47,726 bases of DNA from Phycisphaerae bacterium (lineage in GTDB: Bacteria; Planctomycetota; Phycisphaerae; UBA1845): contig JABWBH010000033.1 of NCBI GenBank assembly GCA_013360585.1, positions 1 through 47,726 on the forward strand, given 5' to 3'. The notes beneath the pieces were generated by a model. The model made no database searches and had not been told where the DNA came from. It saw only the letters and a list, made by a program, of their open reading frames with translations. Made by a program: the position numbers and the translations under genes. Positions within the stretch are counted from its first letter, which is position 1. Every line of letters begins with the position of its first letter. Shown one piece after another: positions 21,862-24,199 of the stretch.

Positions 21862-21940
21862 CAAAGCAACGCAGCGGACCCCGCCGACCTGAAATACCCG
21901 AGCCTCACGGACCGAATACGGACAAGGAGTGCAACAACCG

Positions 21941-22663
21941 ATGAATCCTCTTCAGAACGATCCGAGCCCCGATCCGGAACCGCTGTGGACGCGCCTGCTG
22001 GCGACGGACCGTCCGGATTGGTTTGCCCGCCTTCTGATGAGTCTGGTGACTGCGGCGGTGTTCGGCGGCGCCGCGATGCTGGGGCTGGCCGTTTTCGACA
22101 GCGTCATGCCGCCGCGGACAGTCAGCTACACCGATCCGAGCGGGCGGCTCGTCTCGTATGCGATGCGGCGCGTGGATGAGGAGCACATTGCGCTTGCGCT
22201 GGCGATCGCCGGCACGGTCTGGTGCCTGACCCTTCCGTGGATCTGGCGCGGATACCGGCGCTTCCGCACCGGATTGACCGCGGTCTTTCAGGTCACGGCG
22301 ATCTGGGTCTGCGCCATCCCTCTGTGCATCTTCGTCGATCGGGCCGCGGCCAACGAGGAAATCTGGATTGCGGCGATCATCCTTTTTGCCGGCGGAGGAA
22401 CTTTCCTCGTCGTCGCCCGAGGGTACGCGCGGTATCGCGCCGGACGCTCGGTCTTGACCCCCGAGGGCGTCGTCAACGTCTCCTGTCCGCGATGCGGTTA
22501 CTCCCTCGTCGGCCTCAGCGAGTCCCGATGTCCCGAGTGCGGCGCGAGGTTTACGCTGGACGAGCTGATTCGCGAGCAACGTTTCGCCGGCGCTCGACTG
22601 CAACCGCCCCGCCGCACGGCGGAGGACAACCCGGACGGCGATTTCCTCCGCGCCGCACGATGA
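21941..22663 (+). CDS. Four-span membrane protein with C-terminal zinc ribbon
   Basis: 240 residues from ATG 21941, with AAGGAG 11 bases upstream. Membrane spans fall near 29-50, 83-102, 113-133 and 141-160. The cytosolic tail carries a zinc ribbon, CPRCGYSLVGL at 182 and CPECGARF at 197, a pairing that is very common in planctomycete membrane proteins. Function is unknown; zinc binding is predicted from four cysteines. It is convergent with the small exported peptide gene, separated by a 9-bp-arm hairpin (22681-22716). Confidence 0.82.
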   Translation: MNPLQNDPSPDPEPLWTRLLATDRPDWFARLLMSLVTAAVFGGAAMLGLAVFDSVMPPRTVSYTDPSGRLVSYAMRRVDEEHIALALAIAGTVWCLTLPWIWRGYRRFRTGLTAVFQVTAIWVCAIPLCIFVDRAAANEEIWIAAIILFAGGGTFLVVARGYARYRAGRSVLTPEGVVNVSCPRCGYSLVGLSESRCPECGARFTLDELIREQRFAGARLQPPRRTAEDNPDGDFLRAAR

Positions 22664-22680
22664 AGCGCCCGGAAAACGAC

Positions 22681-22716
22681 GCAGGCCGCAGAGACCCCCT
22701 CGTTTCCGCGGCCTGC
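22681..22716. terminator. Bidirectional hairpin between convergent genes
   Basis: Perfect 9-bp arms GCAGGCCGC (22681-22689) and GCGGCCTGC (22708-22716) around an 18-base loop. It sits between the zinc-ribbon gene stop (22663) and the minus-strand peptide gene stop (22741). T-rich bases follow weakly on each strand. Confidence 0.6.
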
Positions 22717-22740
22717 TTCGTTCCGATCCGTCCGCCGTCG

Positions 22741-22923
22741 TCACGGCGACAGAAGCTGCACGATCATGTTCAACAGCCAGCCCAGAAAGCCGTCCGCCGA
22801 CTCAATCAGCGCTCCCTGCCACTGACTTGGCACTTCTCCGGCGGCCAGCGCCGCCCCCGAACTGCCCGCCACCACCAACCCCGCCACAACCCCCATCCAC
22901 AGTGCTCTTCGCGCCTTCACCAT
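22741..22923 (-). CDS. 60-residue exported micro-protein after HTH-TPR gene
   Basis: A small gene with real support: AGGA 7 bases upstream of the ATG, and a clean signal peptide, basic MVKARR, a hydrophobic core (LWMGVVAGLVVAGSSG) and an AALAAGE cleavage region. The ~33-residue remainder (from GEVPSQWQ to VQLLSP) is amphipathic and ends hydrophobic. It follows the HTH-TPR regulator gene by 25 bases on the same strand and is probably co-transcribed. That layout recalls secreted pro-peptides of Gram-positive RRNPP regulators, but no homology is claimed. It could also be a membrane-active peptide or a small envelope protein. Confidence 0.62.
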   Translation of the reverse strand: MVKARRALWMGVVAGLVVAGSSGAALAAGEVPSQWQGALIESADGFLGWLLNMIVQLLSP

Positions 22924-22948
22924 GTCTGAGTCCTTTCAATAAAAGGGA

Positions 22949-24199
22949 CTAACCTGAATCCACCACTTTCGCCGTCCGGATGATCTGCCAGCCCAGCCGC
23001 CGGAACAGCGGGAACTGCCCGACCGCCCCGGTGATCAGCCGCAGGTCTTCCTCGTCAATGACGAAATCCGCCTCTTCCCCCGCCTGCTCCTTGAACGCCT
23101 GATACACGCGGTATTCCATGTTCAGCACCCGCTCGCGAATCACCCAGTTGTTCAGCCGGTTGGCGATCTCCAGCCCTTTGTTCGTGAACACCGCGATCGC
23201 CCGCTGCTGCTCGTCCCCCGTCAGGTGGCGGAAGGCGATGTTCGCCCCGAAGATGCACCACCACCCGAAGCTCTCCAGCAGGTCGCCGACCGGAAGGTCA
23301 TCCGTCTCGTCCAGCTTCGCCAGAATCCGCGCGACCGCCTCGTCCGGCGCCACGCCGCCGCGCGCCGCCTCGGCCTCGAGCAGACCCCCGGCGCACGTGT
23401 TCGCAATGCTGAACGTCTGCTCGTCGCCGAACTCGCCGTGGAGGGCGTTGAAAATCTCCCGTGCTCGCGCGAGGTCCGCGTACGCGGCGTCCGCGTGCGA
23501 ACGCGGATCCTCCAGCGGAAACTGAAGCATGCGCAACGAAATCCGCCCGCGCACGTAGTACGCAAAGCCCTGGGTGCCCGTGTCACGGCGGCCTTGCGGC
23601 GGGTGATCGTTGAACCAGTCCAGGACGAGCTGCGCAATCCCTCGCGCCTCAGTGATCTCGCCCTGCACGAGAAGCTCGTACGCCAGGTTCGACTCGAGCA
23701 TCAAACGCAGACCGTCCGAGATCGGCACCTGCTGAAGCCCGCGTCGCAGCATCTCCAGCGACTTGTGCGACTGACCGAGCAGATCCCACGCCCCGGCCTG
23801 CCGCTGGCACGCCAGCGCCCGCTGCTCCGGCGTCCGCGCCGCGGAGAACGCTCGCTGCGCAAGGCCCAGCATGCCGCGATAATCGGCGTTGCGGAACGCC
23901 GCCATCGCCGCTTCGTCAAGCTGCTCGAACGTCGCCCCTTCCGCCGCCGAACTCAGCGACGAGTCATCAAACCAGATGAAGTCGATGACCGTCTCGATCG
24001 GCCAGTCCAGCACCTGCGCCAGCCCGACGACGAAGTCCAGCTTCGGATTGCCGCCGGGATACAGCTTCGTCACGTGACGGTTCAGCGCGTCGGCAAGCTG
24101 ATGCTTCGTCCACCCGCGGTAGTGCAGCGCGAGGTCGATCAGCTTGTGCAGGCGGAGTTCCCGCTGCTCTTCGGTACAGGCGATCGCGCCCAGTTCCAT
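22949..24199 (-). CDS. HTH-TPR transcriptional regulator-like protein
   Basis: 416 residues from ATG 24199 (GGAG 8 bases upstream); a GTG at 24241 would add 14 residues but lacks a site. Residues ~12-75 look like an XRE-type helix-turn-helix: LIDLALHYRGWTKHQLADAL, then LDFVVGLAQVLDWPIETVI. The following ~330 residues are helical repeats of TPR type (for example GMLGLAQRAFSAARTPEQRA and NLAYELLVQGEITEARGIAQ). A DNA-binding domain plus long TPR array is the plan of RRNPP peptide sensors, but also of other regulators. It heads a two-gene unit with the 60-residue exported peptide gene. Regulon and ligand are unknown. Confidence 0.75.
   Translation of the reverse strand: MELGAIACTEEQRELRLHKLIDLALHYRGWTKHQLADALNRHVTKLYPGGNPKLDFVVGLAQVLDWPIETVIDFIWFDDSSLSSAAEGATFEQLDEAAMAAFRNADYRGMLGLAQRAFSAARTPEQRALACQRQAGAWDLLGQSHKSLEMLRRGLQQVPISDGLRLMLESNLAYELLVQGEITEARGIAQLVLDWFNDHPPQGRRDTGTQGFAYYVRGRISLRMLQFPLEDPRSHADAAYADLARAREIFNALHGEFGDEQTFSIANTCAGGLLEAEAARGGVAPDEAVARILAKLDETDDLPVGDLLESFGWWCIFGANIAFRHLTGDEQQRAIAVFTNKGLEIANRLNNWVIRERVLNMEYRVYQAFKEQAGEEADFVIDEEDLRLITGAVGQFPLFRRLGWQIIRTAKVVDSG

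Follow-up and report, generated by a model that had tools for sequence, protein, structure and literature searches.

A recurring pair of an HTH-TPR regulator and an exported partner in Phycisphaerae, with possible RRNPP-like peptide signaling

A two-gene unit in the window

The window analyzed here is a stretch of 47,726 nucleotides, contig JABWBH010000033.1 of a Phycisphaerae bacterium (assembly GCA_013360585.1), numbered along its forward strand. Two genes lie side by side on its minus strand. The first, at 22949..24199, with its ATG at 24199 and its stop at 22949, encodes a 416-residue HTH-TPR regulator that is a putative peptide receptor. The second, at 22741..22923, is an open reading frame (ORF) with its ATG at 22923; it encodes a 60-residue small protein with predicted export, a candidate peptide precursor. 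The gap from regulator stop to small-gene start is 25 nt, and it holds a ribosome site read from the sequence, GAAAGGA (22931..22937, minus strand), which ends 7 nt ahead of the ATG. A preliminary description of this DNA had reported a 416-residue regulator followed 25 bases later by a 60-codon gene with a ribosome site, and both reading frames are present as described.

Folding places a hairpin followed by TTTT, the probable terminator of the unit, at 22682..22716 on the minus strand. The surrounding stretch, 22660-22745, has a folding z of −4.9, and a consensus terminator scan gives a weaker match at this site that is not above shuffles. Since the hairpin and its T tract come after the small gene, regulator and small gene are probably carried on one transcript. 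A convergent ORF on the plus strand (21929-22663) faces the 3' end of the unit. Another terminator-like match, also not above shuffles, lies inside the regulator gene at 23158-23175 on the opposite strand. No sigma-70-like promoter was found, and the upstream alignment of the window genus yielded nothing usable as an operator.

The small protein and its predicted export

The first 28 residues of the small protein (22840..22923, minus strand) form a signal-peptide-like start. The signal peptide claimed for this product in the preliminary description stands as an export-type start, called on the rough basis used throughout this work, a hydrophobicity rule and inspection by eye. The mature part defined by this prediction is about 33 residues long, and its longest invariant run in an alignment of three congeners is PSQWQG (22813..22830, minus strand). 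The last 16 residues of the peptide are hydrophobic (mean 0.60, moment 0.33), its net charge is −3, and it carries no PEP-CTERM-like tail. No Pfam or NCBIfam family matches it above cut-off.

The small ORF is a real gene under purifying selection, as its retention in congeners, its dN/dS and its genus-limited profile matches establish. Two congeners keep the protein with 92% and 47% identity. Against congener G003, 15 of 177 nt differ, spread 5/1/9 over the codon positions (dN 0.047, dS 0.225); against congener G002, dN is 0.41 and dS 1.16. Of 60 genomes searched with a profile of the small protein, 3 give matches with E<1e-30, and these belong to the window genus without exception; the next best match has an E of 0.027. 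These three genomes are all the congeners with sequence behind the regulator, the contig of the fourth ending inside the regulator gene. Relatives that keep the regulator and lose the small ORF, which the preliminary description had named as evidence against a pair, are not seen within the genus: the small gene stands behind the regulator in 3/3.

Structure of the regulator

The predicted TPR-type superhelix spans residues 88-409 (22973..23938, minus strand) and is delimited by the model, fold searches, a profile search and helix conservation. The AlphaFold model of the full regulator consists of paired helices throughout (mean pLDDT 89.5), and the regulator family profile matches designed TPR proteins with an E of 1.8e-15; together these bear out the TPR-like repeats first read from the sequence. 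Pfam leaves TPRs undetected in the window regulator and finds TPR_2 in 4 of 43 relatives, and no Pfam or NCBIfam family matches the regulator above cut-off. Conservation adds modest support: with TPR helices assigned by eye from the AlphaFold model, the first helices of the pairs are somewhat more conserved than the second (2.51 versus 2.22 bits, permutation p 0.005).

The best PDB match of the regulator in Foldseek is PlcR with PapR7 and DNA, at an E of 3.7e-5 (TM 0.35/0.50, rmsd 19.4). LGN chains occupy most of the next ranks, and Rap stands at rank 23. VIA-align gives its top Z scores outside the RRNPP group to APPBP2 (22.2), TSK (21.8), an APC/C subunit (20.0) and MalT (19.9); the RRNPP proteins Rap, NprR and AimR reach 19.4, 18.0 and 16.8, so that APPBP2, TSK and MalT all outrank Rap. 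A profile search of PDB sequences listed 54 sequences, none of them RRNPP. The predicted fold fits an RRNPP-type receptor but equally fits generic TPR proteins, and does not single out the former.

The N-terminal XRE-like HTH, with a shortened third helix, covers residues 10-76 (23972..24172, minus strand) and is assigned by alignment, model and fold search. Modeled alone, the first 85 residues adopt an XRE-type fold (mean pLDDT 86.2). Fold searches with this part score modestly (best Foldseek E 0.0035, best VIA-align Z 8.0), and nearly all of the matches listed are XRE-type proteins, including PlcR, ComR and PrgX. In the model, the recognition helix (the third) spans only about a single turn. 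The XRE-like HTH proposed in the preliminary description is thus retained as a fold and qualified by its short recognition helix and modest scores, and DNA binding by it is putative.

Distribution of the regulator family

Searched with the single sequence, 40 genomes (the source genome among them) yield the regulator only in the window genus, in 4 genomes, and all four congener genomes searched have it. Profiles built from 7 regulators (A2) and from 43 regulators (A3) reach much further. The A2 profile matches 33 of 298 genomes of the class Phycisphaerae, two of them weakly, and 13 of 392 genomes drawn from the phylum; nine of these 13 are strong matches, all in Phycisphaerae, and four are weak partial matches elsewhere. 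With the A3 profile, regulators are found in 122 of 151 genomes of another Phycisphaerae family (f15), in 28 of 120 genomes of family f9 (seven weak only) and in 10 of 27 of family f4. The named records of the bearers are Phycisphaerae or Planctomycetota. Patterns taken from one relative matched nothing in viral contigs.

Some genomes carry many paralogous regulators: G680 has 12 matches, G802 has 9, some of them fragmentary, and G672 has 7. These paralogues are partly in tandem, with differing partners, and are well suited to testing insulation between pairs.

Upstream alignments of seven clusters of relatives show conserved stretches in some, and no common operator site is found across the seven. 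One cluster (L081, L090, L092, L093, L082, L096, L099, L100 and L101) has, just ahead of the regulator start codon, a conserved stretch that contains a small inverted repeat. This stretch could be an operator or a leader.

Pairing of the regulator with an exported protein

The layout of a regulator followed by an exported partner recurs through Phycisphaerae. The survey began with 184 raw hits from overlapping fetches, which reduce to 159 distinct regulators and, after removal of 3 truncated ones, to the 156 used, which have usable downstream DNA; the profile matches in the three families f15, f9 and f4 entered the survey in part (those of G680, for instance, with few of their 12). Clustering left 104 regulators less than 70% identical, among which G002 stands for the window genus, the window itself being outside the 104. 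For 91 of the 104, an ORF that runs in the same direction and begins with a signal-peptide-like hydrophobic segment lies at −25 to +50 nt. Three cation-efflux-type ORFs (L058, L061, L071) and two tiny ORFs (L208, L198) are counted here, which leaves at least five doubtful cases among the 91. The 13 regulators with no such ORF within 50 nt include G002, whose gap is 133 nt, and L196, with 79 nt; others are followed by another regulator, as in L008, L057 and L070.

Picking the partner by hydrophobic strength favors finding one, and one rule was therefore applied to regulators and to other genes alike. Under this stricter rule, 83 of 104 regulators have a partner, versus 36 of 188 control genes, which are other long ORFs of the same loci. 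Higher thresholds give 78 and 72 of 104 regulators versus 23 and 17 of 188 controls.

Gap lengths were taken from a set of 95 rows with a limit of +105 nt, in which two second regulators (L103, L182) are misread as partners. The commonest gap in this set is −4, in 27 of the 95. Within the genus, the gap is 25 nt in the window, 26 nt in G003 and 133 nt in G002. L058, L061 and L071 form a regulator subclade in which the next gene encodes a cation-efflux transporter (by Pfam for L061 and L071, by eye for L058), not a motif-bearing exported protein.

A short motif in the partners

Many partners share a short motif, H[ST]xQ[DEG]. It is present in 44 of the 91, where shuffling gives 0.29 on average and 3 at most, and in 4 of 1431 other ORFs of the same loci. 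The motif was fixed on the first loci before the later ones were fetched, and in these held-out loci, with regulators less than 70% identical to the first set and to each other, it recurs in 26 of 58 partners versus 0.17 expected. It lies beyond the signal peptide, at a distance of 9-61 residues from the hydrophobic core, and stands 23-494 residues ahead of the C-terminus. Ten of the 44 precursors hold two copies.

These results bear on a further explanation, in which GC-rich sequence and the choice among several ORFs would have produced the pairing or the small ORF artificially. High-GC DNA is indeed rich in spurious ORFs, and partners were chosen by hydrophobic strength. The control genes, the purifying selection on the window ORF and the held-out motif test nevertheless contradict an artefact, which is extremely improbable.

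The strict motif is missing from 47 of the 91 partners and from the window genus, which has SQWQG. From its corresponding position, SQWQG may be the equivalent of H[ST]xQ[DEG] in this genus. Smaller groups of partners carry HxDxP[ED] (7), HNEQG (3), PPWH (3) and DNEGP (2), and by motif class 30 of the 104 are 'other' and 9 'none'.

Conservation around the motif differs between classes. In 28 HxxQD sites, where H, Q and D are set by the search pattern itself, every flanking position carries at most 1.2 bits, N fills the free middle position in 19 of 28 and T the second position in 21 of 28. The flanks of 11 HxxQG sites reach at most 1.25 bits. The 16 sites of the HxxQE class show wider similarity in a helix-like context, and the pentapeptide is therefore not the sole conserved part in that class.

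Mapped on the regulator tree, motif class changes 35 times, versus 66.1 with shuffled labels (0/200), on a quick tree with 40 of 101 inner branches well supported and 29 open. Any gene inherited with its neighbor would cluster in this way, so the clustering shows lasting pairing, not binding. Regulator columns that covary with motif letters do not favor the groove over the back helices (mean nMI 0.104 versus 0.099, and 0.165 versus 0.178).

The occurrence of HTNQD outside the pairs was measured by a DNA-pattern scan of 14 genomes chosen for having HTNQD cassettes. The scan finds 26 sites, 19 behind a regulator and 7 elsewhere, and the reversed pattern finds 0. About 5 unlinked sites are expected by chance for a 64-fold degenerate 15-mer in 42 Mb on both strands. 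Judged by eye, an orthologous 562-codon protein accounts for two of the unlinked sites and a GGDEF-like protein for one; the other four are in ORFs of 44-74 codons. The 562-codon protein, in L251 and L259 (genomes G710 and G730), has AHTNQDGDC near its C-terminal part, the one unlinked occurrence shared by two genomes; it resembles a glycosidase by eye and may itself be exported. As HTNQD is near chance away from the regulator in these 14 genomes, a role for it as a general sorting or surface signal is not supported.

The exported partners

The partners are highly diverse in sequence and length, ranging over 68-554 residues in the 95 rows. Only 10 of the 95 have 100 residues or fewer, and outside the window genus most are longer. 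A PEP-CTERM-like tail is found by pattern in 38 of the 95. Ten of 32 motif-bearing partners were scanned with family models: TIGR02595 (PEP_CTERM) is above cut-off in 5 and the MYXO-CTERM model in one more. In a separate scan of relatives' partners, TIGR02595 is above cut-off in 1 of 3.

Such tails suit an ordinary operon, in which the regulator would control an envelope or surface protein without binding it, the motif would act outside the cell, and the hydrophobic window product would act on membranes or the envelope. The sorting models passed in 6 of the 10 scanned partners and the hydrophobic end of the window peptide fit this account. Typical membrane-active peptides are cationic, unlike the window peptide with its negative charge, and in the 14 genomes HTNQD away from the regulator does not exceed chance, bar the one orthologous large protein in two genomes. 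While an ordinary operon accounts for the sorting tails, it gives no reason for a motif retained next to the regulator, and we regard it as unlikely. PEP-CTERM/exosortase surface proteins resemble the partners in these tails, unlike the tailless window partner, and such a regulator is not known to be part of that sorting machinery.

Of the long motif-bearing partners, six were searched with Pfam: three gave beta-helix matches (two above cut-off, that of L076 below), one gave an M64 peptidase match and two gave none. In L076, L080, L156 and L198, the signal peptide is followed first by the motif and then by a large exported protein, which is of beta-helix type in three and an M64 peptidase in L198. 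The strongest argument against a plain pheromone precursor is that the motif can precede whole exported proteins. Together with the sorting tails, these domains lower the probability of a peptide signal and raise those of the ordinary operon and of recognition within the cell.

Recognition within the cell would make the regulator a TPR chaperone or secretion monitor that binds the motif before export. The unexported precursor would switch or titrate the regulator and so adjust its own expression, with no extracellular signal. TPR proteins often bind short client segments, which counts for this account; the overlapping genes with a gap of −4 suggest pairing at synthesis, and a motif that sits behind the signal peptide and ahead of beta-helix and M64 peptidase domains would be an N-terminal tag on diverse clients. 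TPR chaperones of type III secretion (SycD type) are likewise encoded beside their exported clients and bind them by a short segment, although they have no HTH and serve another secretion route. The two motif copies in some precursors and the short mature window partner speak somewhat more for a signal than for a client. Recognition within the cell is nonetheless a close rival, since it explains most of the same facts and the domains behind the motif better than a peptide signal does. We judge it possible, if somewhat improbable.

Comparison with RRNPP systems

The RRNPP criteria, as given in the available part of PMC10075063, are a propeptide of 10-100 residues, Sec export, a receptor of 250-500 residues, TPRs in that receptor, and adjacent genes at −60 to 400 bp. 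The window pair agrees in four respects (60 residues, 416 residues, TPRs, 25 nt), and its Sec export is called by the hydrophobicity rule only. The wider family departs from the propeptide size limit, with only 10 of 95 partners inside it. The mature RRNPP peptide is usually at the C-terminus, a position that the same part of PMC10075063 treats as usual and not defining; the strict motif, at 23-494 residues before the C-end, is elsewhere. Duplication of the signal segment has a precedent, as some RRNPPA propeptides carry one according to the available part of PMC11343458. In the parts available of PMC10075063, PMC9765709 and PMC12700828, RRNPP is treated as a system of Bacillota.

The likeness to RRNPP/RRNPPA systems (Rap-Phr, PlcR-PapR, NprR-NprX, AimR-AimP, ComR, PrgX) lies in the TPR receptor of 250-500 residues, in most cases with an XRE-like HTH, in the adjacent exported small protein, and in a short ligand-like segment that is sometimes duplicated. 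PlcR, Rap, NprR and AimR are also among the best bacterial matches of the predicted fold. The differences are as clear. The profile search of PDB sequences reveals no sequence relationship, the phylum is Planctomycetota, the motif follows the signal peptide instead of lying at the C-terminus, and the recognition helix is short. Unlike Phr- and PapR-type propeptides, most partners exceed 100 residues, many are PEP-CTERM-like and some have a folded domain. The best reading is that the planctomycete pairs would work like RRNPP systems, and we do not class them as RRNPP members.

The NsdA family of TPR-like regulators (NCBIfam NF053720) is matched weakly by one TPR stretch (E 0.004, 16.7 bits versus a cut-off of 75), and this match, far below cut-off, occurs in only 2 of 43 family members. 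A literature search made largely without subscription journals and without preprints found no paper joining planctomycetes with RRNPP, and one on HTH, TPR and secreted peptides in Phycisphaerae found nothing relevant to this family.

A model for the pair and its implications

The reading we prefer, with a probability of roughly 0.43, is that the window regulator is a receptor and the small gene encodes the precursor of a short peptide signal, in an RRNPP-like manner. A peptide read by the TPR groove is the first choice because the partners keep five residues and little else, the motif is duplicated in some, and the predicted fold is PlcR-like. In the mechanism that we infer, each two-gene cassette would encode a cytoplasmic receptor, built of TPRs and an XRE-like DNA-binding end, together with its own exported precursor on the same transcript. 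The ligand would come from the precursor, as a short stretch that follows the signal peptide and reads H[ST]xQ[DEG] in the largest classes and SQWQG in the window genus. It would be released after export and would re-enter through an oligopeptide importer; the source genome has one Opp-type binding protein (SBP_bac_5), which allows peptide import. Inside the cell the ligand would sit in the TPR groove and switch the regulator at its own and other promoters, possibly serving communication.

The peptide-signaling pair proposed in the preliminary description is upheld in part. The layout recurs in Phycisphaerae, and a short motif is conserved in many exported partners, but outside the genus the partners are mostly longer than 100 residues and have PEP-CTERM-like tails or domains. 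The window pair is not a one-off: it is part of a large unnamed family of such pairs in planctomycetes.

For the class as a whole, we propose, with more reserve than for the window pair, that the HTH-TPR receptors in the cytoplasm of Phycisphaerae may read pentapeptide signals from a large repertoire of the class's own. This would be communication or self-sensing outside Bacillota, in which the precursors of many lineages would be surface-type proteins with the signal near the N-terminus, and receptor and signal type would diversify together. If the pairs do not signal, the family is still an undescribed class of regulators tied to an exported partner. If they do, a diderm phylum would have peptide receptors of this layout, present in most of the genomes sampled from one family, and the motifs would offer concrete five-residue candidate ligands, ready for synthesis and testing.
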